This document shows positions 43,912-64,000 of a DNA stretch of 64,000 nucleotides, piece after piece. The stretch comes from Stieleria neptunia. GTDB lineage: Bacteria; Planctomycetota; Planctomycetia; Pirellulales; Pirellulaceae. The notes below the pieces were generated by a model. It was not told where the DNA came from. It searched no databases and was given only the letters and a program-made list of their open reading frames with translations. The DNA is taken from NCBI RefSeq assembly GCF_007754155.1, contig NZ_CP037423.1:9792938-9856937 (forward strand), given 5' to 3'. A program made the translations under genes and the position numbers. Position 1 is the stretch's first letter, and each line of letters begins with the position of its first letter.

Positions 43912-44502
43912 TTAGCGTCCTTCGAGTTGACGTTGTATGCGTTCATGTTCTTCGACAGCCGCACGCTTGAAGCGTTCAAACAATCCTCCACGACGAAGAC
44001 GCCGAGAACAATCCCTGGCTTTCTCAAGAAGACAAAATGATGTGGAACAACCATCATCAAGCAGTTGGACGGCGGCATCGAATGCCATTTCACTCAGTTC
44101 GTTTTCGCGACTTGCGGCTGCGGAGATGTCCAAGGCCAGTTCGACCGTTGAACGTGCCATTCCCGCCGAGTACCAGTCCTTGATTTCCGGCCAGTCGATG
44201 ACCACGTTTAACGCCGCCCACGCATGTTCGAGTTCGCCGATCTCAACGTAAAGTTCGCCAAGTCGAAGATGATCGGACATTCGTTCCCATGCATCATGGG
44301 GTCGGAGTTCGATCATTTTCTGGGCCGCATCAATGGCTTCATCGTGCTGACCAAGCAGCGGACGATAGTACCGGAGTTTACTGAGGGTATCGAGGTTTAC
44401 CGGTTGCGACGCTTGCCACGCATCGAGGCGTACGCGCCCGTCGGCAACACGCCTTGAGTCCAGTGCTTCTTGAACGATATCGCCAGCATCAGGTGAGGAC
44501 AT
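43912..44502 (-). CDS. Cassette gene: TPR-like helical protein
   Basis: A 196-residue all-helical protein with tetratricopeptide-like periodicity (LGQHDEAIDAAQKMIELRPH, LRLGELYVEIGELEHAWAA). No signal peptide, so cytoplasmic. The start at 44502 (MSSPDAGDIVQEALD) is chosen because the 14 codons before it lie within the attC-like site at 44512-44602. This is the most distal gene of the array in the window. Function unknown. Confidence 0.65.
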   Translation of the reverse strand: MSSPDAGDIVQEALDSRRVADGRVRLDAWQASQPVNLDTLSKLRYYRPLLGQHDEAIDAAQKMIELRPHDAWERMSDHLRLGELYVEIGELEHAWAALNVVIDWPEIKDWYSAGMARSTVELALDISAAASRENELSEMAFDAAVQLLDDGCSTSFCLLEKARDCSRRLRRGGLFERFKRAAVEEHERIQRQLEGR

Positions 44503-44511
44503 GTTTTTGTG

Positions 44512-44602
44512 GCAGAACGTCCACCGCAGCACGGCGAACGACATTGTGTTTTCGGGTTGACGCCGAATCAGACCCGGCTCTGCTTTCGCCCTGGCGTCTT
44601 AA
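44512..44602 (-). other. attC-like recombination site
   Basis: Outer core GCAGAAC on the left; inner arm ACGGCGAACGACATTGTG is shared with the site at 52763-52858. The right core is degenerate (about GTCTTAATCC) and overlaps the stop of the next gene. Less symmetrical than most others in the array. Confidence 0.5.
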
Positions 44603-44898
44603 TCCAACAGAATACCGAGTAAAAGAACAATCGCAATCGTCTCGCGATGAACGACACACCGAACATCGAACATGTCCGTGACCAGCCGGTTCCAGACTTC
44701 CTTCGCAAACCAGGCAGTCACGAAAACCATGATGAGAAACCGAACAAGGTCGATAAGCGATGTAAGGATGATGCCCTCCAGTGGAACGCCCTTGGCTGAG
44801 TCGGACATCGCAAAAGTGAAAACACCCACAACCGCCGAATAAAGAACCAGCAAGGCGTTGAATTTGGTGGTAATCGTCGCATCTGTTTTCACTGTCAC
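44599..44898 (-). CDS. Cassette gene: small membrane protein
   Basis: A 99-residue protein with two clear hydrophobic helices (NALLVLYSAVVGVFTFAM and LVRFLIMVFVTAWFA) and a third hydrophobic end (TIAIVLLLGILLD). Function unknown. Only about 50 bases separate it from the preceding gene and no attC is recognised there, so the two may share a cassette. Confidence 0.6.
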   Translation of the reverse strand: MTVKTDATITTKFNALLVLYSAVVGVFTFAMSDSAKGVPLEGIILTSLIDLVRFLIMVFVTAWFAKEVWNRLVTDMFDVRCVVHRETIAIVLLLGILLD

Positions 44899-44951
44899 GG
44901 CAAATCATTGATTGAAGTCGTCAAAAAGTCATCGCATACGAAAAGAGACAT

Positions 44952-45164
44952 TCATCCCGTCGGAAAACGGTAGAAATCATGCGGGTCGGGCAGGCGTCCG
45001 CCACAGTGGAAGCAGTGCAATAGCGGAGTCTCATCCGCAAGTGTAAATGCCTCCAACTGTTCGTCGAATGTGACCGGCGACGTGGGCGTCTGGGCATAGG
45101 CTTCCATCATGAAGCATTGACACTCCGGAAACTTTTGGCATTCAGTACTCACGCTATCAGCCAA
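44952..45164 (-). CDS. Cassette gene: 70-residue Cys-containing protein
   Basis: A small protein with a possible zinc knuckle (LLHCFHCGGRLPDPHDF) and another pair of cysteines near the start (CQKFPECQCF). Function unknown. The start would be TTG at 45164, just after the R'-like core GTTACGT; the weak ribosome binding site makes the start uncertain. Confidence 0.5.
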   Translation of the reverse strand: MADSVSTECQKFPECQCFMMEAYAQTPTSPVTFDEQLEAFTLADETPLLHCFHCGGRLPDPHDFYRFPTG

Positions 45165-45177
45165 TTGTTGACGTAAC

Positions 45178-46254
45178 GTATGGCGATCGATCCGCGCACG
45201 CGGAGGAACGGGAATCGTTCGTGCGCCAGCACTTTGTCGCTCCTCAGGTGGGCCGGTCAGAAAAGCTGATTAGAACGGATCCTGCCAGACGGTGCCACAT
45301 TTTAGTGCCAAGTGAAATCGGGCTGGGCGACGGCAGCACGATCCGGTTCAGCCTCCGGCCACTTTGCACTTTCTTGTTCACTTTTCGCACGACCAGTCGT
45401 ACCAAGTGCGAAAAACCCTCACCCATCGCGACGCCATCGACGCAGCGTCCACGGTATCCCGAAGGGATCACAGCGAGTAGCCGGAGGTCAGCGCAGCGCC
45501 ACCTCCGGACCACGCCCCCAATCCTCCCCTCGCCCCAGAACTCGCTCGCAGTCTTGAAGCACTGATCAAGTCAGAAAACGTCTGGCCCACCACGTCGACA
45601 ACTGCAATGACAATCCGGATTCGATCCGATCTGACCGAGGAAGCTGCCGCGTTTTATCGTCGAGAAGCCAACCTTCCGGCGGGACGCGTCAAGACGTGGA
45701 GTGTTTGGCCGCGAAAGAGTTCAAAGAGCACAAAAGGGAAGAACGCGACTTGCGTAGGCGGCCGCGCGGGACCCTTTGGGCGCTGCCGCAACATTTCGTT
45801 CGCGGTGCATCAAACGCACCATCAAATGACGGTTCAGTTCTGTTCTCCGCGCGGACCTTTTGCGTCCTTTGCGCTCTATTGTCGCGATCTCTCCTTGCCA
45901 GACGTCTGGTGGATCGTGCTGACCGCGTTCTCATCTCAGTGGTGCACTTCTAGCGTCCCAAGGCGCTCGACTCCCAAGCAACGGCGTGAGCGTGCGCCCG
46001 GTCGGATTCGTCTCTTCGTCAAAGAAAAACACCCTCGGACCACACAACGCGAGTGGCGGGGGAGTCAAGCGCCGCAGAATCACACGATGGGCCACAAGAG
46101 ATCAAGACGCTTGTCGCACCAAAACGCCGACGACCGACGGCCAAAGGATTGGAGAAGCTGGCGTCAGCCTACGGTCGTAAGCCCCACGCTGGCCTCAGCC
46201 CACCGCGACCACACGTCAACCGCCGAAGCCGTCGGCAATTCGATTCAGTTCAAC
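45178..46254 (-). repeat. Decayed IS91-type module 1 filling a cassette
   Basis: No intact gene. On the minus strand the module starts at the GTTGAAC core of the attC at 46248 and ends at an IS91-like right end next to GTTACGT (about 45171-45177). The last 250 bases align with the 3' end of the IS91-type transposase at 55921 (shared TACCACTCG-like and CCCATCG stretches around 45390-45440). The middle shares long stretches with modules 2 and 3, for example TTCCGGCGGGACGCGTCAAG and GATCCGATCTGACCGAGGAA. Confidence 0.7.
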
Positions 46255-46339
46255 GCCTGCCGTAGCCGGGCGGTCGCCAAAAGACTCTGATTTAAAAAAC
46301 CCGTGCCATCGACCGCTCCGATTCACGGCCTGGTTAGTT
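46248..46339 (-). other. attC-like recombination site
   Basis: Cores GTTCAAC and GTTAGTT enclose arms GCCGGGCGGTCG and CGACCGCTCC that pair, with a loop of about 30 bases containing TTTAAAAAACCC. The stop codon of the neighbouring lipoprotein gene lies within the right core, as in typical gene cassettes. Confidence 0.72.
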
Positions 46340-46972
46340 GCCCGTCGCTTCAATCGCTCGGCAGAATGCATCGACAGCCTGATCGGCTTTACGCATCGCG
46401 GTTAATGCGTCATGGCTGAACTGCTCGGTGGCTTCTGTCTCTTTCAACTCGGGCACTTCAGTCGGCAGGTCGAGGTGGAATTGTGAAACGCCCGGCGGAT
46501 CGAGCTTCATGTCGATGAGAAACACGCGTCCTTTGGATGAACCGAAGGCTTCGTCGTCAATCGAAATGGTTTCTGTCTCAATGCTATCCGCTCCACTTTT
46601 CAGGACAAGTTCATATTTGGCGGTCGATTCGTTGCCATACGTGTTGATCGTATGAGACGTACTGGCGGTCGCCCCGCGGCTTCCGCCTTCGGACGTTACC
46701 CCGGCATTCGGACGATCGTGATTGAACACCAGGAAATACGCGATTCTCTTGGACTGTCCGGGCAGTGTCACGGTCGCAAAGGCGACTCCCGGTTGGTTTT
46801 CTTTGACAACGACATTGCCATTCGATATCGAAAGGCCATCGCTCGTTGAGCTGCCTTCGCTCATGATCAGATGCTGGGGTTGCGACGACGCATCGGACAG
46901 GTTCGGTTGCCCGCCCGTGCAGCCCACCAGCACGGTGACGCTTGTAACGAGAATCAGTGTGAAGTCTTGCAC
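46334..46972 (-). CDS. Cassette gene: lipoprotein of unknown function
   Basis: A 212-residue protein with a lipoprotein signal (VQDFTLILVTSVTVLVGC, lipobox VGC). The mature part is beta-rich, with SGADSIETETISIDDEAFG, and ends in a helix. Start GTG at 46972; the reading frame continues upstream but through the attC at 47071-47123. The stop sits in the attC core at 46333-46339. Function unknown. Confidence 0.65.
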   Translation of the reverse strand: MQDFTLILVTSVTVLVGCTGGQPNLSDASSQPQHLIMSEGSSTSDGLSISNGNVVVKENQPGVAFATVTLPGQSKRIAYFLVFNHDRPNAGVTSEGGSRGATASTSHTINTYGNESTAKYELVLKSGADSIETETISIDDEAFGSSKGRVFLIDMKLDPPGVSQFHLDLPTEVPELKETEATEQFSHDALTAMRKADQAVDAFCRAIEATGN

Positions 46973-47070
46973 GATTGGGGTCTCGCGGTGCTGAGGAAAA
47001 TTACGTCCGCGATCACGTGGTTCGCGGAGGGTTTGTCTGCTGGATGTGATGGGCTGGCACGCTGCGATCA

Positions 47071-47123
47071 GGGTAACGTTGGCGATCGGTACCAGCGAAC
47101 TCTCGTGCATCCGATTGTTACCC
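47071..47123 (-). other. Short attC-like recombination site
   Basis: GGGTAAC at the left and GTTACCC at the right are perfect inverted cores. Inside are GTTGGCGATCGG and GTGCATCCGAT. Only 53 bases long, so the variable centre is nearly absent. Confidence 0.65.
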
Positions 47124-47166
47124 GATTCTGTTAAACAGGCAATCACGATCGGTCAGGTGTGAATTC

Positions 47167-47577
47167 TCAATTCCAGCCCACCCATTCGCTAATGTTGTAC
47201 TTGCCCTGCCATCCCTTCGATTCGATCGTCCAATGTTTTCCGGAAAGTCGTGCATCACCGCGAGCATCAAAGCCAACAAAACCCGTTTCCGGCAGAATCG
47301 TAGGGAACAAAGATTCCACCCTCCAGATGACTCGCGTTGGCGACCCAGTTCTACGTACACGTATCCGCAATTCGCCATTTACGGCGTCGATGGCCAAAGA
47401 AGCGGTGCAAAACGTTCCTTTGGGGGTTAGCGATTCGCGAACGGCAACAACCACATTCGCAAAAAGAGGCGGACACCCGTCTCGCTCAAACCCTTCGAAC
47501 CTTGGCCTTACCGCGTCATTAAGTATTGCCGCAACCAATTCGGAAGACGGCTGGATCTCGTCCTTAGCGGTAGCCAT
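47167..47577 (-). CDS. Cassette gene: hypothetical protein
   Basis: A 136-residue soluble protein (MATAKDEIQPSSELVAAILN) with mixed alpha/beta content and a block NGELRIRVRRTGSPTRVIWR. No recognised motif. The start at 47577 is preferred since the 18 upstream codons run through the GTTACCC core at 47603. Confidence 0.6.
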   Translation of the reverse strand: MATAKDEIQPSSELVAAILNDAVRPRFEGFERDGCPPLFANVVVAVRESLTPKGTFCTASLAIDAVNGELRIRVRRTGSPTRVIWRVESLFPTILPETGFVGFDARGDARLSGKHWTIESKGWQGKYNISEWVGWN

Positions 47578-47609
47578 GTTTGCGTGTGGAGGATTCTCTA
47601 TCGGGTAAC

Positions 47610-48920
47610 GAATTGCGATCGATCCGCGCATGGAGAGGAACAGGGATCCATCGGGCGTCAGAACGATGTCGCCCCTCAGGCGGGCCGGCTACAGGACGTG
47701 ATTAGAACGGATCCTGCCAGAGGGTGCCAGTTTCTCAGACCCAGGCAAACTCAAACTGCGTGGCGGCAGGAGGGGCCGACCCCAACTCCTTCTCCTTCTC
47801 CTTCTCCTTCTCCTTTGCACTTTCTTGCTCACGCTTCGCACGACCAGTCGTACCAAGTACGAAAAACCTTCCCCCATCGCGGCGCCATCGACGCAGCGTC
47901 CACGGTATCCCGAAGGGATCACAGCGAGTAGCCGGAGGTCAGCGCAGCGCCACCTCCGGACCACGCCCCCAAACCTCCCCTCGACCCCGAACGGGGTCGC
48001 AGCGAATCCCGACACCCCGCCGAGCGGAGCCTCCGGCTAAACGGAAACCCCGCGAGACCGACCGGAAACCCGGGAACGATCATTGGAGGCACGTCGTTTT
48101 CCCAACCAGCCAGATGCAGAAAGAAGAGAGGAAAATTTCGGGTAGAAAAAAGGTTTGTTGAGAAAGGCCTCGTCCCCAGAAAAGTTGGGTCGAGAGCGTC
48201 TCGCCCCAGAACTTGCTCGCAGTCTTGAAGCACTGATCAAGTCGGAAAACGTCTGGCTCACAACGTCGACAACTGCAATGGCAATCCGAATTCGATCCGA
48301 TCTGACCGAGGAAGCTGTCGCGTTTTATCGCCGAGAAGCCAGCCTTCCGGCGGGACGCGTCAAGACGTGGAGCGTTTGGCCGCGAAAGAGTTCAAAGAGC
48401 ACAAAAGGGAAGAATGCTACTTGCGTAGGCGGGTGCATGGGACCCTTTGGACGCTGCCGCAACATTTCGTTCGCGGTGCATCAAACGCACCATCGAATGG
48501 CGGTTCTGTTCGTAATCCGCGCGCACCTTTTGCGTCCTTTGCGCTCTATTGTGGCGATCCTCCTTGCCAGACGTCTGGTGGATTGTGCAAACTGCGCTTT
48601 GAACTCACGGGTGCACGTCAAACATCCCAAGGTGTTCGACTCCCAAGGATCGCGGCGTCGTGCGCAGAGTCGGATTCGTCTTTGAGTCAAATGAAACGAC
48701 CCGCGGACCACACGACGCAAGTGACGGGGGAGTCATGCGCCGGTGGATCACTCAAAGGGGCACAAGAGATCAGGACGCTCATCGCATCAAAACGCTGACG
48801 CCCCACGGCCATTGGATTCAAGAAGCTGGCGTCAGCCTACGGTTGCAAGTCCCACGCAATCCCTGCCACCGCGACCGCACGTCAACCGTCGAAGCGGCAA
48901 GCAATTCGATTCAGTTCAAC
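47610..48920 (-). repeat. Decayed IS91-type module 2 filling a cassette
   Basis: No intact gene. Ends are as in module 1: GTTGAAC on one side (attC at 48914) and the hairpin right end next to GTTACCC (47603-47609) on the other. It holds the same IS91 C-terminal relic, interrupted by a CTCCTT/CTTCTC microsatellite at about 47786-47818, a CCCGAAGGGATCACAGCGAG repeat at about 47909, and the shared middle stretch from 48280 onward. It also has about 200 bases (48000-48200) absent from modules 1 and 3. Confidence 0.7.
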
Positions 48921-49004
48921 GTTTGCAATCACCCGATCGCGACGAGAGATTGTCCATTTTGAAAACGCCCCATTCCGCGACTCGGGTGAATTGCTTGGTT
49001 CTGC
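48914..49004 (-). other. attC-like recombination site
   Basis: Cores GTTCAAC and GTTCTGC. Arms TTGCAATCACCCGATCGCGAC and CGCGACTCGGGTGAATTGC pair imperfectly, with a variable centre of about 30 bases (AGATTGTCCATTTTGAAAAC). One of the clearest attC structures in the window. Confidence 0.78.
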
Positions 49005-49021: not shown

Positions 49022-49477
49022 CTACGTTGGGTAAGCGTGATCCGCTTCGCGCTGTGCCCAAGCAATTAGGGATAGCGATTCTTGTTTGCCAGTAATCGTT
49101 TCAGCGACCGTGGCAATGATCTTGATCAAGTAGTCGTCGCCACGTCGTTCGACGACGTCCAACCTCAGTCTTAACACATCATGTGATTCCATCACATTTA
49201 CGTCAAAGTACGGTTCGCCAGAATCTTCATCGCATGGCGAATTCAGTTCGATTGAAGCCCCCGTCAGATCGTCATTTGGCTCCAGGGGCAACGGACCGGC
49301 TTCTGTCATTAGTCGAATGCCGTATGGGTATTCGGGCTCGTCACGGTCGTCGGTGACGCAAGGTCCCGAGAAATTGAAGTCCCACCCGGGGCCGGAGCAA
49401 CTATCGGTGATGTACCGAAACGTTGCGGATTCAATCGCAAAGCGATGAGAGTCGAAATGCAATTCGTTTTCATCCAT
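49022..49477 (-). CDS. Cassette gene: hypothetical acidic protein
   Basis: A 151-residue soluble acidic protein. It has beta-sheet-like alternation (FDVNVMESHDVLRLRLDVVE) and conserved-looking GPGWDFNFSGPCV. Function unknown. Only six bases separate it from the preceding gene's stop, so the two form a two-gene cassette. Confidence 0.65.
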   Translation of the reverse strand: MDENELHFDSHRFAIESATFRYITDSCSGPGWDFNFSGPCVTDDRDEPEYPYGIRLMTEAGPLPLEPNDDLTGASIELNSPCDEDSGEPYFDVNVMESHDVLRLRLDVVERRGDDYLIKIIATVAETITGKQESLSLIAWAQREADHAYPT

Positions 49478-49483
49478 CGCACA

Positions 49484-49843
49484 TCATCTTGCCGGAGAAC
49501 TCGAAAAATCACAGGAATGCTGGTCAGCCAGAGCGATCATCTCACCCAACCATTTTTGTATGCTGGACTCATCTTTGCAATTCATTTGGGGATCCGATGC
49601 ACAATCCAGGTGCCAAATATCAAAAGCGTAAGATCGGGCAATCGCTGTCGAATACTGAAAGCTCAAGATGTCGCGAAGACGCAAAACTCCGGCTTCATCA
49701 TGTGAAGCGATCCGGAAGCGAAGGCATTTGTTCTCCAGCACTTCTGTGCCGCTGAGATGCAGAAGCGCAAACACCTTGTTGCTTGCCCCGAGCAATCGTT
49801 CGTATCTTCCCTGCCGGCTTTGTCCCGAGAACTGTTTAGTCAC
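49484..49843 (-). CDS. Cassette gene: hypothetical protein
   Basis: About 119 residues from a GTG at 49843 (VTKQFSGQSRQGRYERL); the open frame extends to 49897 but that start lies in the attC core. Shows GVLRLRDILSFQYSTAIARS and two cysteines near the middle. Function unknown. First gene of a probable two-gene cassette with the gene at 49022. Confidence 0.5.
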   Translation of the reverse strand: MTKQFSGQSRQGRYERLLGASNKVFALLHLSGTEVLENKCLRFRIASHDEAGVLRLRDILSFQYSTAIARSYAFDIWHLDCASDPQMNCKDESSIQKWLGEMIALADQHSCDFSSSPAR

Positions 49844-49882
49844 GGTCTTTGTCCGCGATGAAAACCAAGGAACGCTTCGCAC

Positions 49883-49973
49883 GCAGAACGGTAGCAATCA
49901 CACGGCGGCGACGAGCGATCATCCACACCAAACGACGTGACTTCGCCGCTCGTCATGCATCGCATTGTTCTGC
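49883..49973 (-). other. attC-like recombination site
   Basis: Cores GCAGAAC and GTTCTGC are perfect inverted copies. Arms GCAATCACACGGCGGCGACG and CGCCGCTCGTCATGCATCGC pair imperfectly around CACACCAAACGACG. Confidence 0.78.
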
Positions 49974-49995: not shown

Positions 49996-50475
49996 TTAGC
50001 CACGGGAGAGTGTGTTGACAAGACGCTCAAATTCTGCGTTGTTTGCAAATAGTGCCGACGACAGCGTTGTGCGTTTTCGTTTACCTGAAAGATGAATTTG
50101 TTTAACAAAGCCTATGTCGGTTGTCCGGACTGTTACCTTCGCTACCGGAAGAGACCAACCGGCACCGGCAAGGAGACCGCCCGGTAAAGTGAGTTTGCCG
50201 TCATGAATGGTGATCAGTTTTGGTGGACGTGAACGTGCGCGAAGGAGTGTGATGGATACAGAGAGCCCCGCGATGGCAAGCACCACGCCAACCGTCAGGA
50301 CAGTCCAAGAAGGAAGTGGAGCACGTCCAATCATTAGAGAATTGCGCAGAAGCCAAGCCAGAGGAACTGCAAGTATTCCCGTCGCCAACGTCACCCAAGC
50401 AATCCAAAGTTGGTTGGAGCGGAGTTTGCCATACTCCCACTGCATCGCATTGTTTCCGATTGGGCTTGCACTCAT
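49996..50475 (-). CDS. Cassette gene: two-helix membrane protein
   Basis: A 159-residue protein with two adjacent transmembrane helices (LWIAWVTLATGILAVPLAW and SWTVLTVGVVLAIAGLSVSI) and a C-terminal cytoplasmic domain carrying LITIHDGKLTLPGG. The layout resembles a bacterial PH-domain-like membrane protein, but this is only a guess. The start could also be ATG at 50445. Confidence 0.6.
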   Translation of the reverse strand: MSASPIGNNAMQWEYGKLRSNQLWIAWVTLATGILAVPLAWLLRNSLMIGRAPLPSWTVLTVGVVLAIAGLSVSITLLRARSRPPKLITIHDGKLTLPGGLLAGAGWSLPVAKVTVRTTDIGFVKQIHLSGKRKRTTLSSALFANNAEFERLVNTLSRG

Positions 50476-50542: not shown

Positions 50543-50632
50543 GCAGAACGTTAACGATCACTTGGCCGCCGTGAACGACTTACCACTCGTATAAACTCAA
50601 CTCGGCGGCTCACGTGCATCGCCTCGTTCGTC
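50543..50632 (-). other. attC-like recombination site
   Basis: Cores GCAGAAC and GTTCGTC. Arms TTAACGATCACTTGGCCGCC and GGCGGCTCACGTGCATCG pair; the centre holds ACTTACCACTCGTATAAACT. Confidence 0.75.
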
Positions 50633-50639: not shown

Positions 50640-51095
50640 TCACTGCCGGTCGGCATCGCCTGGATTCATGCCTTCAGAATGAGTAACAGTCATGACACCA
50701 GTTGACGTGGTGTCAGATGCCACAATTTTATCACGATTCGGGGGTGTTAGTAGCTCAACGACATGTCCATCCAGATCCTTTACGACAGCTCGCCTGCCCC
50801 ATTCGCTGTCGGCCGGTTTAGAGATCAATTCCGCGCCGACATCCAGAAGCATCGAGACAATCGAATCGACATCGTCGACCGAAAAGCCGATTCGCGTTCC
50901 GATCGTCGGCGGATGCTTCCCAAGCGGATAAATCTCAAAGACGAAACCATCGATGACTGATGCGTAGTGCTCTGGTCCGTTTCCGTGGCGGTGTCTTGTA
51001 AACAACAGCCCCATCTCCGAATAAAAATCGGATGCTCGGTCGATGTCCGTTGACCGCAATACGGTCAGATTCATGATCGGGGGAGCTGCAAACAT
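50640..51095 (-). CDS. Cassette gene: VOC (glyoxalase/bleomycin-resistance) family protein
   Basis: A 151-residue protein of the vicinal oxygen chelate superfamily: LTVLRSTDIDRASDFYSEMG, the middle GFVFEIYPLG and the end WGRRAVVKDLDGHVVELLTP. Such proteins include glyoxalases, dioxygenases and antibiotic-binding proteins; the metal-site residues (the Glu of EIYP and Glu of VVELL) are present. The substrate cannot be told. The start could be ATG at 51074, which gives the usual VOC N-terminus. It starts 8-30 bases after a GTTCGTC core. Confidence 0.85.
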   Translation of the reverse strand: MFAAPPIMNLTVLRSTDIDRASDFYSEMGLLFTRHRHGNGPEHYASVIDGFVFEIYPLGKHPPTIGTRIGFSVDDVDSIVSMLLDVGAELISKPADSEWGRRAVVKDLDGHVVELLTPPNRDKIVASDTTSTGVMTVTHSEGMNPGDADRQ

Positions 51096-51109
51096 ATGTT
51101 GGGACGAAC

Positions 51110-52134: not shown

Positions 52135-52205
52135 GACAGCCATCACCGATGGACGGCCATTGTGGTTTCAACTTTGCCGTTCGTCGGTGGATGGCTTGGT
52201 TATCC
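52128..52205 (-). other. attC-like recombination site
   Basis: Cores GTTCAAC and GTTATCC. Arms AGCCATCACCGATGGACGGC and GCCGTTCGTCGGTGGATGGC pair well. Length 78 bases, with a centre of about 22. Confidence 0.76.
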
Positions 52206-52753: not shown

Positions 52754-52762
52754 GCTTTGCCC

Positions 52763-55266: not shown

Positions 55267-55280
55267 TGGATTCTTCTTTG

Positions 55281-55362
55281 CGATAACGTTAGAAATCACG
55301 CGGGACGGTCGAAAGACGTGCAAGCAGACCAAAATCCGCGACTCTCGTCCTTATGGTCATCC
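55281..55362 (-). other. attC-like recombination site
   Basis: Left core CGATAAC; the right core is degenerate (GTCATCC). Arms TCACGCGGGACGGTCG and CGCGACTCTCGTCC pair partly. The stop of the next gene lies in the right core. Confidence 0.6.
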
Positions 55363-55800: not shown

Positions 55801-55920
55801 TGGCTGAACGCTGCGTCATTCAGTCGGCGAACGAAATGCGATCTATCCGGGTACGGAGTACACGGATAGATCGTGCGTTAAAGTTTGTCGGCACGACTTG
55901 GCCGCTTCTGGGGGACGCTA

Positions 55921-56490: not shown

Positions 56491-56693
56491 GCAAGCTTTC
56501 GTTCTCGGATCAGATGGAGCTGGAAGGTTCTAACGTCTTCGACGGTTGCCTGGTCGAGCGGTTTTTCGATAAAGTCGGCAAACTTTCGCACGTGATAGGT
56601 GTAGGCGTCGATGGTGGCTTCGGCCATGTTGCGGATCACCATGTCTTCGGCGAGCCGCTTGGTGAGTTTGCAGGTTCGTTTTTTGTGTGACAT
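56430..56693 (-). pseudogene. Tyrosine recombinase, N-terminal fragment
   Basis: An 87-residue ORF starting MSHKKRTCKLTKRLAEDMVI followed by RNMAEATIDAYTYHVRKFAD and ATVEDVRTFQLHLIRER, the SAM-like core-binding domain of phage-type integrases. The catalytic domain (R...HxxR...Y) is absent. The ribosome binding site CAAGGACAAGC is good, so a short product might still be made. Recombinases of this kind commonly lie next to IS91-type transposases; this one is not an integron integrase by these residues. Confidence 0.72.
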
Positions 56694-56968
56694 CACGGTT
56701 GCTTGTCCTTGTTGTGAAACAGAGTTCAAAAGAAGTTCGCGCCGCAGCGTGCGGGGAACACAACAAGGGTGCGTCAACGAGCAAAAAGCGCAAGTTAAAA
56801 CGTCAGGCAAAGCACCAAGAAAGAGACCGTAAGAACGCCCAGCGCACACAACTAGCTAACCGCAAAAGCGCCTACAGGCGCGCCGAAAGACAGACGCGTT
56901 GTGACCCTCACACGCTCACCGCACCGACAAGAGAAAACGGTCACGCCAATGAAGTCGCTGCCGATTAA

Positions 56969-57059
56969 GTTCAACGGCGGTGGTCACCGCGTCGGCGCGA
57001 TCGACCCAAACTCAAAAACAAACTCAACTCGCCGACTGCGGTGCACCACATGGTTCACG
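56969..57059 (-). other. attC-like recombination site
   Basis: Cores GTTCAAC and GTTCACG. Arms GGCGGTGGTCACCGCGTCGG and CCGACTGCGGTGCACC pair around CCCAAACTCAAAAACAAACT. Nearly identical to the site at 63565. Confidence 0.76.
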
Positions 57060-57648
57060 CGGTCGGCCACGACGACAGCCCGAGCCAGCATCGGTCTGTG
57101 CCAATGTACTCCATCGAAATCGCCTTGGGAAATTTCACTCCCCTTGCTGTACCGATCTCATTGTGGAGTCGGGATGAAGCCCGGAGGGCTGGCACAATGC
57201 TTGCCGGTGGTGTCAGCCACCGGTATCGAAAGAACGGATTTGCTGAGGCCTGGAAGGCCGGCACAATGGGTCTCCCGGTCCACGCCAAGCCCGGGCATTG
57301 TGTCGACCCGCTGGGCCTAGGGCGCTCCTTTGAATCCTCCCCCGGTGGCTGACGCCACCGGCAGACACTCTACCGGCCCTCCGGGCCTGAAAGCCGCCCT
57401 CGTACTCAGCACCGTGGTACTCGTGCTCGTACTCGAATCAACAGGCGTCGGTTTGTCTTCCTCGGCCGAGTCGACCGCGCACCTGTCGAACGATGACATC
57501 AAATGCGAATCTCAGGAAACAGAAGCTCGATGAAATCAGATGGGCGTCCTATGGGTCACGATCCAACGACGGCGAATCAATTGCCACAAAAGAACGCGAG
57601 AAGACGCAAAAGAAGAAGTGGACGCTGTCGTCAGGCGTGGGTTACCAG
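57060..57648. repeat. Non-coding cassette filled with repeat family R2, copy b
   Basis: No supported gene. It follows copy a closely: GGTCGGCCACGACGACAGC at the start, CCAATGTACTCCATCG, GGTGGTGTCAGCCACCGG and its inverted partner, then CGTACTCAGCACCGTGGTACT and CAATTGCCACAAAAGAACGC near the end. Confidence 0.65.
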
Positions 57649-57739
57649 CGTGAACGTCACGGATCACGCGGTCGCCGCGAGCGATCCTCCACTTCAAAAA
57701 CCACGACTCGGCGACTCGTCGTGCATCCGATGGTTCGTC
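57649..57739 (-). other. attC-like recombination site
   Basis: Cores CGTGAAC and GTTCGTC. Arms GATCACGCGGTCGCCGCGAG and CGGCGACTCGTCGTGCATCC pair. Shares its left arm with the site at 54673. Confidence 0.78.
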
Positions 57740-57856: not shown

Positions 57857-58159
57857 TCAATCGACGGTTTGTGATTCTGGTGTCCATGTGCTCGTGCGTA
57901 TCGCGCGATCGACCCAATTTGCAGGTCTAAAAAGTAACGATGATACACGGTGTTCGACACTTTCTGGGTCAGGGAATCCGTAGTGTGGTTCAACGTACGT
58001 CTTTATTTCCCCGGTTTCCAGCCATGCAATCTCCTCTGTCGGTTCAACCATCGCTGCATATGCCGATCCGTACAGCACTGCGATCACGCCGGCTGCAAGT
58101 ACGACCAAGCGGCGTCGCTGGCTCGGTGAAGTATCGGTCTCGTCTGACATCGTCTTCAA
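57857..58159 (-). CDS. Cassette gene: single-pass membrane protein
   Basis: A 100-residue protein: a short basic N-terminus, one helix (RRLVVLAAGVIAVLYGSAYA) and a charged C-terminal domain (EEIAWLETGEIKTYVEPHYG). Function unknown. Between the stop and the attC at 57649-57739 are about 115 bases without a gene. Confidence 0.55.
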   Translation of the reverse strand: MKTMSDETDTSPSQRRRLVVLAAGVIAVLYGSAYAAMVEPTEEIAWLETGEIKTYVEPHYGFPDPESVEHRVSSLLFRPANWVDRAIRTSTWTPESQTVD

Positions 58160-58176: not shown

Positions 58177-58307
58177 GACGAACATCAGCGATCACCTCGC
58201 ACACGGACCACTACGATTGAGATGGCGTGAGCGTGATGAAGGCGGTCGGTGTGAAAGTTTGTGTATCGCAACAATGAGTGTGCTGGGGTGCATCGCCGGG
58301 TTCGTGG
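58177..58307 (-). other. attC-like recombination site, unit 1 of tandem pair
   Basis: Cores GACGAAC and GTTCGTG. Arms CAGCGATCACCTCGCAC and GTGTGCTGGGGTGCATCG pair. A longer centre (about 70 bases) than other sites. Confidence 0.68.
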
Positions 58308-59045
58308 CGTCGGTCGGCACGCCGGTTGGAACGACCGTCGCGGCTTGCCAATGTACTCGATCGGAATCGCCAAGGGAAATGCGAGCGTCCCAATCTGCAG
58401 CCGGCATGTCAGGCGTCGGTCGTCAGCGTTGAAGTCGTCAGGCGTCGGTTTGTCTTCGTCAGCTGAGTCGACCGCGCACCCATCAAGCCATGACATCAAA
58501 AGCGAATCACTGGAAACAGAGGTTCGATGACATCAGGTGGGCCAACTTCGAGCGCACTAATCAGCAGCATGGACGACAGGCGTTGGCCCATCGCAGCCAC
58601 GTCTACCGCCGCGAACATCAGCGATCACCTCGCACGCAGACCTCTACGATTGAGTTGGCGTGAGCGTGATGATCGAAACGGGGTGAAAGCTTGTGTCTCG
58701 CGGCAACGAGTGTGCTGGGGTGCATCGCCGGGTTCGTGGCGTCGGTCGGCACGCCGGTTTGGAACGATCGTCGCGGCTTGCCAATGTACTCGATTCGAAT
58801 TGCCAAGGGAAATTCCGGCGTCCCAATCTGCAGCCGGCATGTCAGGCGTCGGTCGTCAGCGTTGAAATCGTCAGGCGTCGGTTTGTCTTCGCCAGCCGAG
58901 TCGACCGCGCACCCATCAAACCATGGCATCAAAAGCGAATCCCAGGAAACGGAGGTTCGACGACATCAGGTGGGCCAACCTCAAGCGCACCAATCAGCAG
59001 CATGGACGACAGGCGCTGGACCATCGCAGCCACGTCTACCGCCAC
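58184..59045. repeat. Tandem duplication of a non-coding R2 cassette, period 433 bp
   Basis: The segments 58180-58612 and 58613-59045 are nearly identical over their length, including CCAATGTACTCGAT, CAATCTGCAGCCGGCATGTC and CGCACTAATCAGCAGCATGG / CGCACCAATCAGCAGCATGG. Each carries one attC. No gene is supported; the minus-strand frames that appear in both are low-complexity and not matched by similar frames in the other R2 copies. Confidence 0.82.
58610..58738 (-). other. attC-like recombination site, unit 2 of tandem pair
   Basis: Cores CGCGAAC and GTTCGTG, with the same arms as the site at 58177. Differs from it by a few substitutions in the centre. Confidence 0.68.
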
Positions 59046-59134
59046 GAACGGGGCGGTTCACCCAGTACGGGCGAAAGACGTTGTGATGGCCTATTATCGA
59101 TCCACCCGTACTTGGGTGCAACCGATGGTTCCCC
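59043..59134 (-). other. attC-like recombination site
   Basis: Left core CACGAAC, right core GTTCCCC. Arms CGGTTCACCCAGTACGGG and CCCGTACTTGGGTGCAACCG form a long stem with one bulged base, one of the best in the array. Confidence 0.78.
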
Positions 59135-59167: not shown

Positions 59168-59542
59168 CTAAATCCCGAAGAACGCGACAAAGAAGTACCA
59201 GGAAAGTGAGAAGACTAGGAACGATATTGCGATCACGAATCCGTAGTGATGTAGTGCGAAACGCTTAACGAACGCCGTGCAGAGTGCGACGGCACCAGTG
59301 ACAATCGCCGCAAGAATCAAGCCACCATCGAGAAACCCCCAAAAGAACCCGAACCCCAGATGCGGTTGAAGGTACGGCGTACTCAATGCGTTTTCGGTCA
59401 GCCCGCCGTAGTATGCGGACACCGTCGTGATGAACACAAACGATAGGAAGGCGGGCCGCCGAGTCCAGAAACGTGTCGCCAACGTTTCGGCAGATGCATC
59501 TGGAATCGCGTGGTGTTGTGGCTCGTACGGATTCGGCTTCAT
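59168..59542 (-). CDS. Cassette gene: polytopic membrane protein with NPYEP motif
   Basis: A 124-residue protein beginning MKPNPYEPQHHAIPD. The N-terminal Asn-Pro-Tyr-x-Pro motif is common in small planctomycete membrane proteins. Three to four hydrophobic helices follow (LSFVFITTVSAYYGGLTE, GLILAAIVTGAVALC, YGFVIAISFLVFSLSWYFF). Function unknown. Confidence 0.65.
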   Translation of the reverse strand: MKPNPYEPQHHAIPDASAETLATRFWTRRPAFLSFVFITTVSAYYGGLTENALSTPYLQPHLGFGFFWGFLDGGLILAAIVTGAVALCTAFVKRFALHHYGFVIAISFLVFSLSWYFFVAFFGI

Positions 59543-59587: not shown

Positions 59588-59679
59588 CGGGGAACGTCCG
59601 GGATCAGCGGGCGGCGGGAGTTGACATTGATCTCACCAAAAACCGCACCACCGCCGCTCCGTTGCATCCCATGGTTCGT
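59588..59679 (-). other. attC-like recombination site
   Basis: Left core GGGGAAC, right core GTTCGTC. Arms GGGATCAGCGGGCGGCGG and CCGCCGCTCCGTTGCATCCC pair imperfectly around TCACCAAAAACCGC. Confidence 0.74.
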
Positions 59680-59701
59680 CGCATGAATTGCCTATAAACA
59701 G

Positions 59702-60842
59702 TCACTCTGAATTCCAAGGGAAATTGACCTGTAGCCCTAATGGATCGTTGCTCAGTACTTTGGCATCAAAGCGACCAAACATTTCGCGTGCCCAGACTGA
59801 GAATTGGTCAATGTCACGTGATTGGGTTAACAAAGTGAATTCGCCATGTTCGTTGGTTCTTGCACCTCCGACGACATGACCTGCTTCGGAGCACGAAACC
59901 GCAGTAAATCGAAGGGGTTTACCGTTGCCATCTGTGATCGTTCCTTCTACGGAAAGAAGTTGCGGAAGACGCACGTCACCAAGATCGACGTGCCTGTCGC
60001 CAGGCGAAATTAATCGCTCAATGTCTTCTTCAAGCCAAAGCGTAGCATGGGGGGTAAATACTGTTCGGCCGATCTCTAGGGATCCTTCCGGTACGCATGC
60101 CGAAAAGCGGCCGTCCTCACTGGTCTGTACATAGCCACCCCGATCGACTGCCTCGATATGGCGAACATGCACTCCGGCTCCCGCAACCGGCGATAAGCCA
60201 TCGCTTGTTTCAGACACGAGTCTTCCCGTTATCTGACAACCGAGTTCGGTTGTGAAAGACACCTCGGTTGTTTCTCCTGGTCGAACGCGCCAAGGGCCAG
60301 GCTCACTCGGAACAAGTACATACTTATCATCGTGAAAGGACGCAGTAATTTCTAGGATCCCTGTTGTCATAGGTATCTCGAAGGCGCGTTGTTGCGGATT
60401 GCGTAGACGATGAAATCCGCGTACTGAGGCATTAGCATCTGAAAACAGTCGCAGTTCCTTGATGGACTCAAGGGCAACCACGTCTTCTATTGCAAGTCTG
60501 ACAGTCCCAGTCTCAGCGACAGTGAATTCGTTCGTCCCGCCTTCAGCAATTGAAAATCGTTGTTCACCAAAACGAACACTCCTTAGGCGAAACTCAGTTG
60601 CCTCAATTGTGTATGCCAACGGGAATTCTGCTTCTCCAGACTCATCAGTGATTTCTCTGCAGTCCTTCCACAATTCTTCCGGCACCTCTGACGCAACAGT
60701 GACGCCATTGTGGACGGCGAAGAGCCTGGAAACGCCTACGAACCGACTGTGGAGAGGTTGACTATTCTGCGCATAGAAAGAAGCAGTTGTTTGATTCTCA
60801 GTTGATCGCGAGATTCGCGCTCCGTACCAAGGCTGTTGTAAT
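59702..60842 (-). pseudogene. 3' part of an IS-interrupted cassette lipoprotein gene
   Basis: Continues the gene cut at 62617. Read in the frame of the 5' part the junction gives AELQ then QPWYGARISRSTENQ, so the halves fuse in frame and encode a protein of about 506 residues. This part is beta-rich with carboxypeptidase-regulatory-like repeats (ADGNGKPL-type pattern in VEGTITDGNGKPLRF; GCQITGRLVSETSDG). An ORF begins within the IS end (at 60856) but that start is an artefact of the insertion. Confidence 0.78.
60835..60842. repeat. Target site duplication, left copy
   Basis: GTTGTAAT directly before the left inverted repeat; the same eight bases stand directly after the right end at 62617-62624. 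Confidence 0.88.
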
Positions 60843-62616
60843 GGGTGCATTCCCATTTAGTTGACGCAAAAATCACGTTAATCGTCGGCCGAAAGGAGTT
60901 GTTGGTCAGTGGCTTCAACTTTGCAGCTCATTGGACGAGGCTCCCAGTGCCAACTGTCGCTTGCCTGGGTGCGACGGAATTCGGCCAGCTCGCCGATTGA
61001 TTCATCCCAACGATTAGGAATCAGATGAGCGCGAACTTGAAGCATCTGCTCCGCGTTTTCGCTTTTCCAAAACATTGCATTGCTCTTTAGACGCAAATTG
61101 ATCACGCGGCGAATGCTGCTTTCGATCGCCCCGCTACCACAAGGGATTCCGCTGCGACGATAGGCAGGGTAACTCAACCGACCCGCTTCACCATGTCGGC
61201 AAAGGTAATGGATTTCTGTTTCCAGTTCTGTGGCCGATTTTCCGACGCGTTCTAGGCCGGCGAGCTCATCAACCACTCGCCGCCATTGACCGTTTCGCAG
61301 CAGCGTTCGGTACTGACGATAAAGCCCCTGGCGGACGTCTGCGTCGAGCCCAAGCGAAGCAAGCGCTTTGGAAACGTGATGCACCGCATGGCAGCAGTCC
61401 AAGACCTGATGCGTGACGACGCTCGTGAGTCCCGCATATTGAATGATGCGATCAATACGATCCCAAATCCAGGGGGCGCCATCGGCGACGAACGTCACGC
61501 TATGTGCCTCCGCGGCTCCGAGCCGATGCAGATGCATCGCAACCAATTCGGCGATCGCGTCGGGCCCAGTCAGGGTGCCGTCGATCGTCGCTTCATGCTC
61601 CTTCACCATCCGCCCCTGCTCGTCGTGAACAAAAATCGTCATCAGTTTAGGCTCCCGCCAGTCCGCTTCAAACGAGCGTGCAGGTTTCTTTGCCGAGCGC
61701 CCGGGCGAGTCAGCTTGCCCCTGAGCGACATCATCGCTTGACGCATTGGAAGTCGATGCAGGTAGCATTTTGCCGCGTATTTTCATTCTTCCGCCATCAA
61801 TTTGCACCGACACTCGTTTCCCGGCCAATTCACCGGTGCTCGCCAACTTGCCCTGCCGAAACAGTTTGAGCCGATGCCGTCGTAGGCGCAATAAGCCGTC
61901 GCCAGATTGATAGGCGATCCGTTTGACCGCCTTGATATCAAGTGTGATACCATCGCGAACCAGTTCTCGGTGAGCCACTTCGATCGAAGGACACAATGCC
62001 ACTTGGCGTGCCACGCGACTCTCCAGCGCGGGCGAGACGCCTTTGCCGAACCCGAATTGAGCAAGCGAAACATGCAAGCCGACGCGGGGCGAATCGTCTC
62101 GACCAAGCAACTTTTTCTTAGGGGCACAGTAGAGCGCTGTGGCCCAGAACAGCATGCCGCCGAGCAAACGAACGGCGACCCTAGTCTCGCGCCCTTTCTG
62201 AAGCGGTCTTGAGAAGTTGACCCGACTCGATTGGCATGCCTTTTCAAAACCTTTTTCGATCATGGTCGCGGAGATCAGCCCGGCGACGACCATGTCCGCA
62301 CCGCGGGCAAAGGCATCATGGATGGTTCTTTCCAGCGTTGCGAGTTGCTCGGGATGATCTGAGATCCGTTGTTTCCAGAGCGTAACTTTGGGAACCAACT
62401 GAGCGTAAAAGAGCGCGAGCATTTCTTCGGCCGACTCAATCCGTTCACCATTCTCTTGCCCCATGTCTAGTCCTTGCATTGTCGTCGGCATCCTTGCTAG
62501 GCGAGTGGAAAATCATCCTTGAATCGCCCAAGATACCGTCAACACCGGATCCAGAAACAGCAGCCAAGCCCCCGACGGGTTGCTAGCAAAAACGTCAACT
62601 AAATGGGAATGCACCC
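60843..62616 (-). mobile_element. ISKra4-like insertion sequence
   Basis: A complete element of about 1774 bases. Terminal inverted repeats of 24 bases (60843-60866 and 62593-62616; they begin GGGTGCATTC and end AGTTGACG reading inwards) match perfectly. It carries one transposase gene on the minus strand and has 8-bp flanking duplications, so it looks like a fairly recent insertion. Confidence 0.9.
60878..62491 (-). CDS. ISKra4-family transposase
   Basis: A 537-residue DDE transposase. The blocks VSVQIDGGRMKIRGK, TFVADGAPWIWDRIDR, LDCCHAVHHVSKAL and CGSGAIESSIRRVINLRLKS match the ISKra4 / DUF-type family, with the catalytic acids in IDGG, VADG and the Glu in AIESS. The N-terminal half holds a helical DNA-binding part. 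The frame is intact and the gene almost fills the element. Confidence 0.85.
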   Translation of the reverse strand: MPTTMQGLDMGQENGERIESAEEMLALFYAQLVPKVTLWKQRISDHPEQLATLERTIHDAFARGADMVVAGLISATMIEKGFEKACQSSRVNFSRPLQKGRETRVAVRLLGGMLFWATALYCAPKKKLLGRDDSPRVGLHVSLAQFGFGKGVSPALESRVARQVALCPSIEVAHRELVRDGITLDIKAVKRIAYQSGDGLLRLRRHRLKLFRQGKLASTGELAGKRVSVQIDGGRMKIRGKMLPASTSNASSDDVAQGQADSPGRSAKKPARSFEADWREPKLMTIFVHDEQGRMVKEHEATIDGTLTGPDAIAELVAMHLHRLGAAEAHSVTFVADGAPWIWDRIDRIIQYAGLTSVVTHQVLDCCHAVHHVSKALASLGLDADVRQGLYRQYRTLLRNGQWRRVVDELAGLERVGKSATELETEIHYLCRHGEAGRLSYPAYRRSGIPCGSGAIESSIRRVINLRLKSNAMFWKSENAEQMLQVRAHLIPNRWDESIGELAEFRRTQASDSWHWEPRPMSCKVEATDQQLLSADD

Positions 62617-62624
62617 GTTGTAAT
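62617..62624. repeat. Target site duplication, right copy
   Basis: GTTGTAAT directly after the right inverted repeat of the ISKra4-like element, matching 60835-60842. Confidence 0.88.
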
Positions 62625-63004
62625 TCGGCATTGCTGACGTGGAAAGCGGAGAGCCCAATTGAAGGACTGTAGACCCAAAGCGTTCCACGCTCCGATTGCC
62701 GTAGACTCTGAGGCTCAAAGCTGGCGCGCCCACCCTCGATCGAAACAGGCACTATGACTCGATCAAGTCCGGCAAAAACGTCAGATAGCCTTAAGACGAC
62801 CCTGACGTCTTGCACGCGTTTGCCTTTGTCGTCCACAACCTCGACACTGAATTCGTTTGAGGTTGGTGTGGAACGAAAATCAAGACTTGCCTGTACAAAT
62901 GCAATTGGTTTCGCGTCACGAGAAGTCGATGTCGATTCTCCACATCCAAACACGAACAAGGAACAGGATAGGGATAGTGCTGACCAAACGACAGATCGGT
63001 CCAT
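62617..63004 (-). pseudogene. 5' part of an IS-interrupted cassette lipoprotein gene
   Basis: Starts MDRSVVWSALSLSCSLFVFG with lipobox FGC (ATG at 63004; a TTG at 63073 would add 23 residues). Then FVQASLDFRSTPTSNEFSVE and VRVVLRLSDVFAGLDRVIVP, an immunoglobulin-like fold pattern. After the target copy GTTGTAAT the frame runs into the IS and stops at 62513. Joined to 59702-60834 it gives 506 residues (388 + 1133 bases, divisible by three). Function unknown; perhaps a surface-exposed protein. Confidence 0.78.
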
Positions 63005-63076
63005 GAGGAAATTGACGCGATGAAGAAATCGTGGAAATGTAGTGTCGCTCACGTGAATTTCAGTTCTTGCCAAGTC

Positions 63077-63166
63077 GACGAACGGCAGGCATCACCGAGA
63101 TCGCGCGATAGATCCGACACTTTGAAAACGCCGACTCGCGATCTTCGGTGGATGCCATGGTTATCG
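63077..63166 (-). other. attC-like recombination site
   Basis: Cores GACGAAC and GTTATCG. Arms GGCATCACCGAGATCGCG and CGCGATCTTCGGTGGATGCC form a stem with few mismatches; centre CCGACACTTTGAAAACGCC. The stop of the following gene is in the right core. Confidence 0.8.
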
Positions 63167-63538
63167 CCTCTCGTCAATCCCTTCGGGCCACCAAGCGTCG
63201 GCAACTTCCGTCAGTTGAAGACGCCCGTCGGGATCGTGGGAAGTAACATACCATTTCGTCGCAATAAAAGCCATTTCACCTGCCCTCGCATCCTGGTGAC
63301 GGCTCAGCCAATCCGACTTGGATTTTGCGGCATGTTGTTGGATGTCGTAGCGTGCGTAGAACGAATCCATCGTCACGCTGTGTTTAGCGTGCATGAAATC
63401 AACAGCTGCTCGCGCGCACAAATCAATCGCTCGGCGTTCAGCATCCGTGACCCGATCGGAGCCGACCAAGGATTCGAGTATTGGGCCGATCTTGTCGAAG
63501 TCAAGTTCGTCTCGATCATCTTGCGAAAGCATTGGCAT
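63161..63538 (-). CDS. Cassette gene: hypothetical protein
   Basis: A 125-residue soluble, helical protein (FDKIGPILESLVGSDRVTDA, RRAIDLCARAAVDFMHAK, WLSRHQDARAGEMAFIATKW). Function unknown. The TAA stop lies in the attC core at 63160. Upstream of the start the sequence runs for only about 30 bases before the next attC-like core. Confidence 0.65.
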   Translation of the reverse strand: MPMLSQDDRDELDFDKIGPILESLVGSDRVTDAERRAIDLCARAAVDFMHAKHSVTMDSFYARYDIQQHAAKSKSDWLSRHQDARAGEMAFIATKWYVTSHDPDGRLQLTEVADAWWPEGIDERR

Positions 63539-63564
63539 TGCCGCGAAAAATCGAATCTCTAATT

Positions 63565-63643
63565 GCGATAACGGCGGTGGTCACCGCGTCGGCGCGATGG
63601 ACCAGAACTCAAAAACAAACTCTACTCGCCGACTGCGGTGCAC
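63565..63643 (-). other. Truncated attC-like site
   Basis: Left core GCGATAAC and arms as at 56969 (GGCGGTGGTCACCGCGTCGG and CCGACTGCGGTGCACC), but the right end is missing: ACATGGTTCACGC present at 57047-57060 is deleted here. Probably non-functional. Confidence 0.6.
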
Positions 63644-64000
63644 CGGTCGGCCACGACGACAGCCCGAGCCATCGCCGCTCTTTGTCAATGTACTCGATCG
63701 GAATCGTCGTGGGAAATCGAGTCACCCAATCAGCGGTCGGCACTTCAGGCGTCGGTTTGTCTTGGATCGTACTCGTACTCAGCATTGCGGTACTCGTGCT
63801 CGTACTCGATCGCCAGGCGTCGGTTTGCCTTCGCCGGCCGAGTCGACCGCGCACCTATCGAACCGTGACATCAAATGCGAAACCCAGGAAACGGAGGTTC
63901 GATGACATCCGGTGGGCGACCTTCGGGTCACGATCAAACGACGGCGAATCAATTGCCACAAAAGAACGCGAGAAGACGCGAAAGCAGAAGTGGGCGCTGT
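63644..64000. repeat. Non-coding cassette with repeat family R2, copy reaching the window end
   Basis: GGTCGGCCACGACGACAGC, TCAATGTACTCGATCGGAAT, GTACTCGTACTCAGC and CAATTGCCACAAAAGAACGC match copies a and b. No gene is supported; the cassette continues past the window. Confidence 0.6.

Follow-up and report, generated by a model that had tools for sequence, protein, structure and literature searches.

How an integron cassette array comes to lie far from any integrase gene of its own is the question raised by a locus in the chromosome of Stieleria neptunia. The genome is a single contig of 10,975,817 bases, and the stretch analyzed here (the window) comprises 64,000 nucleotides of it, at positions 9792938-9856937. 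A preliminary description, made from the sequence alone, had called the last 20 kb of the window an integron cassette array. The integrase IntI, the recombination sites attI and attC, the cassette promoter (Pc), and clusters of attC sites lacking integron integrases (CALINs) are already known as parts. The arrangement of these parts in S. neptunia is, in our view, probably best read as several attI platforms that would be served in trans by one integrase.

The array in the window consists of cassettes bounded by attC sites on the minus strand, as reported by a covariance model built from 12 aligned window sites with pairs assigned by hand. Eighteen attC were reported in the window, with scores between 24.5 and 86.2 bits and 18/18 on the minus strand; several of them show RYYYAAC/GTTRRRY-like cores and a paired imperfect stem with extrahelical bases. 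Since the 12 model-building sites match by construction, the independent evidence comprises the other 6 sites in the window and 279 outside it, and the origin of the model in window sites biases it toward this type of attC. No matches were obtained at E values up to 1 in a background of 20 loci of 20 kb each (400 kb, spread chromosome-wide). An architecture script, which looks for an outer AAC, a short spacer, an inner arm with one extrahelical base, a complementary arm, a spacer, and GTT, found 13 minus-strand sites and 1 plus-strand site between 43900 and 64000 at a threshold of 19, and 17 and 4, respectively, in the entire window. One script site (62244-62374) lies within a transposase gene and is absent from the covariance-model report.

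The arms of the attC sites also covary. Among 93 distinct sites, 94.9% of cells were paired (77.3% when shuffled), two-sided changes occurred in 211 cells (60 when shuffled), and the covariation score was 0.397 (0.090 when shuffled), in an alignment fitted to the attC model, which favors structure. Sliding the partner by 1 to 3 columns dropped pairing to 27 to 41%. Folding of the bottom strand against shuffles provided weaker evidence than covariation, with z < -2 in 7 of the 18 window sites and a median z of -1.4. Searches of the window returned no Rfam match at gathering thresholds and no tRNA. The model sites and the covariation of their arms support the designation of an integron cassette array, for which the preliminary description had itself proposed a covariance-model check, and the sites found form uniformly oriented clusters rather than being scattered singly. 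Approximately twenty attC had been proposed, and the model reports 18; four short hairpins that had probably been included in that number, among them probably one of 53 bp, are not counted here as attC. Considered as a second attC class, these hairpins were rejected because they resemble the ends of IS91-type elements and are unreported by the attC model.

The window holds only the distal ~20 kb of this array, which has 43 attC in all. Twenty-five further attC lie beyond position 64000, up to 9880282 (window coordinate 87345), and the entire array runs on the minus strand from its head at 9880667-9880776 down to about window position 43900. The head (window 87730-87839, minus strand, 23.7 kb past the window) is a block that was first detected by DNA search at 81% identity; it scores 115.8 bits in a covariance model of which it is a model-building sequence. 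It ends at a GTT ahead of the first cassette, as would be expected of an attI at an array head. The expectation that both integrase and attI would lie beyond position 64000 was thus borne out for an attI-like site with a promoter-like sequence, whereas no integrase was found there.

A genome-wide search with TIGR02249 found a single IntI over the cut-off of 265 bits, at 9036714-9037652 (380 bits); the remaining 51 matches listed score no more than 110 bits each. The gene adjoins an array at 9.04 Mb, from which it is divergent, and lies 0.76 Mb below the window and 0.84 Mb from the head of the window array, so that no intI adjacent to the latter array was found in this search. The protein has 453 amino acids, of which residues 141 to 450 align with the Vibrio IntI structure 2a3v, and the RHRY-type catalytic residues are conserved by reading of this alignment. 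Its best three matches are in Stieleria sedimenti ICT_E10.1, Rhodopirellula sp. SM50, and Planctomycetes bacterium TBK1r. An N-terminal extension of ~137 residues (locus L047, 3-1364) is common to planctomycete relatives and a few other metagenome-assembled genomes. In the relative G003, six IntI genes exceed the cut-off, yet there is no match of the attI type described below.

A tyrosine recombinase at 9874703-9875512, 18 kb past the window, was considered as the integrase of the window array and rejected, as it scores 109.9 bits against the cut-off of 265. Its two matches omit TIGR02249 positions ~176 to 239, which we take to be the IntI-specific insert. A relative of this recombinase (345 amino acids, 177 bits) directly precedes an IS91-type transposase frame, and the recombinase is of the type that accompanies IS91-type elements.

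At 9.04 Mb, a block of ~110 bp separates intI from the first attC. A DNA search with this block found five copies in the genome at E ≤ 1.5e-14 (9.04, 7.27, 9.17, 2.54, and 9.88 Mb), each of which lies at an array's proximal end and points the same way as the array, the 9.88-Mb copy being the head of the window array; six further matches at E ≥ 1 are at chance level. Within the genus, DNA search found 26 copies in 6 of 14 genomes, including that of S. neptunia. In their alignment, TTGAC and TANNAT stand 17 bases apart and are followed by a leader that contains an inverted repeat and then by AATAATTAAT-N-GTT; the conserved TTGAC-17-TANNAT is a promoter-like sequence, a putative Pc, reading toward the array. 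In 24 of the 26 copies homology ends at the GTT and the sequence beyond differs, as expected from recombination at G|TT, and we therefore call the block attI. A covariance model built from the 26 copies, whose search scored the best 150 of 2772 candidates, reported at least six attI blocks in the S. neptunia genome at E ≤ 0.1, each at an array head. The sixth (88376-88485, 73 bits) heads a small array at 0.089 Mb, and the 2.72-Mb array has a weak candidate at its head (20.5 bits; E = 0.06). At least six blocks at array heads thus compare with one IntI, i.e., there are more blocks than intI genes.

Such blocks also occur in relatives. Over the 14 genomes the covariance model found blocks in nine, with one weak match each in G004 and G011, and 25 of 26 model matches in fetched loci have same-strand attC downstream within 2.4 kb (compared by eye); the exception, in G009, has a contig end 0.4 kb away. 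The G012 copy at 7337369 overlaps the first attC and has lost its GTT. Of the 26 attI copies, 4 have IntI within 1.5 kb (residues 1 to 445, to the extent that the loci cover it), 3 others have intI fragments, and tblastn at E ≤ 1e-3 found no intI at the remaining 19. The upstream flanks of the 7.27-Mb orphan block are orthologous in four other species (81.5 to 86.6% identity over 0.7 to 1.0 kb), one of the orthologous blocks, that of G012, being without its GTT, and other orphan blocks are common to species pairs by the same measure. The blocks of the window array and of the 2.54-Mb array have no ortholog among the 26 copies.

In all, ~299 attC lie in 13 arrays, 297 of them in 12 clusters and 2 at 0.089 Mb (39.5 and 35.1 bits). 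The count covers 564 kb fetched around the arrays (184 kb plus 380 kb) and is a lower bound, since the genome-wide attC search scored the best 150 of 8590 candidates. Orientation is uniform within each cluster, and 281 of the 297 attC score at least 30 bits. By start in Mb, with attC numbers in parentheses, the arrays are at 0.089 (2), 1.22 (44), 1.43 (11), 2.54 (39), 2.72 (7), 5.39 (5), 7.27 (16), 8.18 (37), 9.04 (60), 9.17 (26), 9.66 (6), 9.84 (43, the window array), and 10.44 (3).

Assuming an origin near dnaA (base 838) and a terminus near 5 Mb, 11 of the 13 arrays are co-oriented with replication (binomial P = 0.011; 10 of 12, P = 0.019, without the array near the terminus), and those against it are the 1.43-Mb and the intI-bearing 9.04-Mb arrays. 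This placement has support from GC skew (8 versus 11 background loci, the 5.0-Mb locus omitted; P = 0.016), and a second DnaA C-terminal-type match at 4771600-4771800 casts some doubt on it. A leading-strand bias has been reported for chromosomal integrons (PMC11023631; this and the other articles cited here were available in part).

Cassettes are shared among these arrays. Of 285 cassettes, each taken between successive attC, 145 belong to families with another member. When a match had to span 90% or more of each of the two lengths, 97 were matched in another array at 90% identity, 61 at 95%, 28 at ≥99%, and 12 at 100%. About a quarter (69/285) form one family, mostly of 430 to 480 bp and present in 8 arrays, whose window members lie at 58184-59049 and 63573-64000. 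This family appears to be non-coding: among 21 distinct 468-bp members there was no codon-position bias (111, 120, and 103 substitutions) and no frame open in more than 4, only 10 of 96 deletions in 62 of the 69 members were a multiple of three, and RNAalifold found no conserved RNA structure in 20 members (z = 0.27).

The site occupied by the window array is empty in relatives. The array sits between a GH16-type gene (window 42655-43548) and a flavin mononucleotide oxidoreductase gene (9881164-9882183), and in all five relatives that have both genes (G001, G002, G005, G012, and G013) these are arranged alike, with 0.3 to 1.8 kb between them and no attC reported there by the covariance model. 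At the cut-off used, G008 showed just the first flank gene and G011 just a 56% copy of the second, and neither was counted. Similarity of the flanks to the relatives ends at the end of the GH16-type gene and restarts ~194 bases past the attI block; no fetched sequence matches this upstream stretch of 194 bp. Gain of the array in this lineage would be the simpler reading. A nearby platform of G001 or G013, considered as the source of the array, gave no flank match in the window or the 60 kb beyond it. Just left of the flank is a REP-associated tyrosine transposase gene (window 41916-42491, 181 bits).

The features of the window are given below in window coordinates. Genes are open reading frames with no Pfam family unless stated otherwise, attC scores are those of the covariance model ("script" marks sites that the architecture script also found), and family membership is from cassette clustering.

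42655-43548, plus: GH16-type glycosidase gene (NCBIfam kappa-carrageenase and beta-glucanase matches, below cut-offs); it flanks the insertion on the left and is not part of the array.
43912-44544, minus: most distal array gene, 210 amino acids; weak Pfam TPR match, below cut-off.
44599-44898, minus: array gene, 99 amino acids.
44952-45164, minus: array gene, 70 amino acids.
45173-46254, no strand: repeated element of ~1 kb (repeat families D2, D6, and D11), present three times in the window, this copy being the first; it ends in a hairpin like that of IS91 and has no recognized gene, and its plus-strand open reading frame has no NCBIfam match.
46248-46339, minus: attC, 32.6 bits.
46334-47146, minus: cassette gene, 270 amino acids.
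46998-47123, minus: weak attC-like site, 25.7 bits, doubtful, inside the start of the preceding reading frame and without a GTT end.
47167-47631, minus: cassette gene, 154 amino acids.
47605-48920, no strand: second copy of the ~1-kb element (repeat and hairpin), flanked by an attC and a gene.
48914-49004, minus: attC, 77.4 bits, script.
49022-49897, minus: two-gene cassette, 49022-49477 (151 amino acids) and 49484-49897 (137 amino acids).
49883-49973, minus: attC, 55.4 bits, not among the model-building sites.
49996-50475, minus: cassette gene, 159 amino acids.
50543-50632, minus: attC, 83.2 bits, script.
50640-51095, minus: cassette gene for a glyoxalase/bleomycin-resistance-type fold protein (Pfam PF00903, over cut-off).
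51105-52134, no strand: third copy of the ~1-kb element (repeat and hairpin).
52128-52205, minus: attC, 47.9 bits, script.
52211-52783, minus: cassette gene, 190 amino acids.
52763-52858, minus: weak attC-like site, 24.5 bits.
52770-53607, minus: cassette of a 15-member family (~680 bp).
53601-53690, minus: attC, 38.6 bits.
53726-54274, minus: cassette gene, 182 amino acids.
54160-54249, minus: attC, 67.1 bits, script.
54244-54720, minus: cassette gene, 158 amino acids.
54675-54765, minus: attC, 76.1 bits, script.
54760-55332, minus: cassette gene, 190 amino acids.
55357-55800, minus: cassette gene with a cREC receiver-type domain (Pfam PF20274, over cut-off).
55835-56975, minus: IS91-family element remnant with companion tyrosine recombinase, from the GTT of the 56969 attC to a hairpin (Phage_int_SAM_4; transpos_IS91 C terminus at 29.9 bits, below cut-off; shared end hairpin).
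56969-57059, minus: attC, 79.1 bits, script.
56976-57655, minus: cassette of the 15-member family, 680 bp, 95% identical to cassette I9.17_20.
57649-57739, minus: attC, 86.2 bits, the top score among those scored in the genome; a model-building site.
57857-58159, minus: cassette gene, 100 amino acids.
58177-58306, minus: attC, 58.2 bits, script.
58184-58616, minus: cassette of the 69-member family, apparently non-coding.
58610-58738, minus: attC, 55.8 bits, script.
58617-59049, minus: 69-member-family cassette with a 100% identical counterpart in the 7.27-Mb array (cassette comparison).
59043-59134, minus: attC, 62.9 bits, script.
59168-59542, minus: cassette gene, 124 amino acids.
59589-59680, minus: attC, 74.5 bits.
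59702-60856, minus: cassette gene, 384 amino acids, with a carboxypeptidase-regulatory-like domain (Pfam PF13620, over cut-off).
60878-62491, minus: ISKra4-like transposase inserted in the array (NF033572 at 113 bits, below the curated cut-off of 205); the covariance model reports no attC between it and the neighboring genes.
62513-63073, minus: cassette gene, 186 amino acids; weak DUF7382 match, below cut-off.
63077-63166, minus: attC, 76.8 bits, script.
63161-63538, minus: cassette gene, 125 amino acids; compared with NCBIfam, where it has no family.
63566-63656, minus: attC, 53.3 bits, with an altered outer R'' core.
63573-64000, minus: cassette of the 69-member family, extending beyond the window.

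The estimate of ~19 cassette genes made in the preliminary description agrees with our reading of the open reading frame list, which gives 19. Its portrayal of the array as a reservoir of unfamiliar proteins is fair, as among the 18 of 19 cassette proteins that were compared with Pfam, 3 pass a cut-off (the glyoxalase, cREC, and carboxypeptidase-regulatory-like proteins) and none of 10 run through PADLOC matched.

Among the four short hairpins mentioned above, that at ~55835-55890 is like the end hairpin of IS91-family elements, and those at ~51100-51170, 47610-47680, and 45200-45260 are like the end hairpin of a related ~1-kb element from other arrays. Within the array regions searched, the ~1-kb elements lie mostly toward the distal ends. 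Where an IS91-family element is accompanied by a tyrosine recombinase, it starts at an attC GTT and ends in a hairpin beside a GTT (window 55835-56975, locus L047 12009-14745, and other arrays; read by eye in two places only); the attC core seems to be the target of these elements. A transposase gene of IS91 type (376 bits) also occurs as a ~1.5-kb cassette with its own attC; six such cassettes lie between attC in three arrays (e.g., L047 1634-3144, L044 659-2169, and the array at 2.54 Mb), and copies begin right after attI at 9.04 and 2.54 Mb. A rolling-circle transposase beside attI could be a route by which platforms are copied.

The observations comprise the attC sites, array heads with attI blocks, a single IntI, a site that is empty in relatives, and identical cassettes in distant arrays, and they favor several attI platforms being served in trans by one integrase. 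IntI from 9.04 Mb would act in trans, excising cassettes from any array by attC × attC recombination; the excised cassettes would be inserted at any of the dispersed attI, and several first positions would be transcribed in parallel. That IntI recognizes the orphan attI we infer indirectly, from the identical cassettes between arrays and the polarity in two arrays described below, and that their promoters are active, from sequence. More tentatively, the arrangement may constitute a distributed integron, i.e., one integrase gene with dispersed inherited platforms of ~110 bp each (promoter plus attI) that are kept in a group of Stieleria species. Such platforms would spread to new chromosomal sites and each build its own array, giving several independently transcribed first positions with one integrase supply.

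A number of observations weigh against service in trans. The attI of the window array is only 72% identical to that beside intI, a confident attI block is absent at 7 of the 13 arrays, and the covariance model reports none in 5 of the 14 genus genomes (G003, G006, G007, G008, and G010). G001 has eight blocks (three weak, 31.2 to 38.7 bits) and no model match near its sole IntI, and G013, a draft, has six blocks, of which two are weak (34.1 and 27.5 bits), and yielded no IntI at E ≤ 1e-60; the platforms of these two genomes may be read more simply as relics. The 3 attI copies with intI fragments are orphan blocks in other species. Polarity speaks in part for service in trans: in the window array, the 13 of 42 cassettes with a ≥95% match elsewhere are positioned nearer the attI end (one-sided P = 0.007), as are the shared cassettes of the 7.27-Mb array (P = 0.013). 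Against it, these single P values are modest given nine or so such polarity tests, and the test was nonsignificant in the 1.22-, 1.43-, 2.54-, 8.18-, and 9.17-Mb arrays and in the intI-bearing 9.04-Mb array. Combined, the four orphan-attI arrays gave P = 0.013 and two arrays without a confident attI gave P = 0.38. Cassette copies could also spread through homologous recombination between arrays.

Since the platforms in two relatives look like relics, loss of intI is a serious rival, although we consider it unlikely. Here the attI-headed arrays would once have had their own intI, later deleted, leaving the orphan attI as relics and the 9.04-Mb integron alone active. The intI fragments at 3 of 26 attI loci and the G001 and G013 blocks without a recognized cognate IntI are consistent with such loss, and the six IntI genes of G003 suggest that several complete integrons per genome may occur. 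However, tblastn found no intI fragment within ~1.5 kb of the four strong orphan attI of S. neptunia, and their surroundings gave no TIGR02249 match in the genome-wide search. Because five relatives lack the window array, an intI would have arrived and gone within this lineage; the 7.27-Mb orphan has orthologs in four other species, and the 100% identical cassettes in these arrays suggest recent activity.

Three origins of CALINs have been listed, namely off-target insertion, intI loss, and rearrangement (PMC8618304), none of which, as presented in the available part of that article, covers several attI-headed arrays with one integrase. By off-target seeding, IntI would have put single cassettes at attG-like sites chromosome-wide, from which the integrase-less arrays grew. 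Proposed as a CALIN origin in PMC8618304, and in keeping with the attG insertion reported in work cited in PMC11023631 and PMC12444791 and with the 7 arrays without a confident attI, this nevertheless leaves the conserved promoter-attI block at six array heads, including that of the window array, unexplained, and we regard it as very improbable. That one large integron was broken up through rearrangements would account for the cassette families common to the arrays but is hardly credible, as each strong attI block lies at the proximal end of its own array and the window array lies between genes that neighbor each other in relatives. An ordinary complete chromosomal integron with intI just past position 64000, which the array's anatomy and orientation would suit, can be dismissed barring an assembly error, the sole IntI over the cut-off being 0.84 Mb from the array head.

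Service of several platforms by one integrase resembles known systems in part. Like the Vibrio-type sedentary chromosomal superintegron, S. neptunia has a TIGR02249 IntI, an attI, a promoter-like sequence, and a long one-orientation array of attC cassettes, but its ~299 attC form 13 arrays rather than one, with at least six attI blocks per one IntI. The window array has two or more attC and no IntI found nearby, as in a CALIN; in contrast to CALINs, it has its own promoter-attI block, and its 43 attC compare with an average of almost 6 per CALIN given in PMC9024848. The Xanthomonas CALINs away from ilvD (PMC12444791) are likewise attC clusters off a single intI locus at relatively conserved places, although the available part of that article mentions no attI at these clusters, and the only size that it gives, for pv. 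citri, is two cassettes. CALINs are said there to be mobilizable in trans. Delta-attI cassettes of mobile integrons (PMC12901181) also use attI-derived sequence off the primary attI, but there the attI piece is the cassette's recombination site, whereas here it is an array head with promoter-like sequence. Integrons typically have one attI near the integrase, and attI is poorly described outside class 1, according to the available part of PMC9024848. Our searches of the open-access literature returned no article about attI platforms that are orphan or multiple, nor about a Stieleria species with an integron.

With 26 planctomycete attI aligned, the question of how integrase-less arrays originate becomes testable. 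If the orphan attI act in trans, cassettes would be captured and expressed at several chromosomal sites simultaneously, and integrase-less clusters need not be decayed remains.

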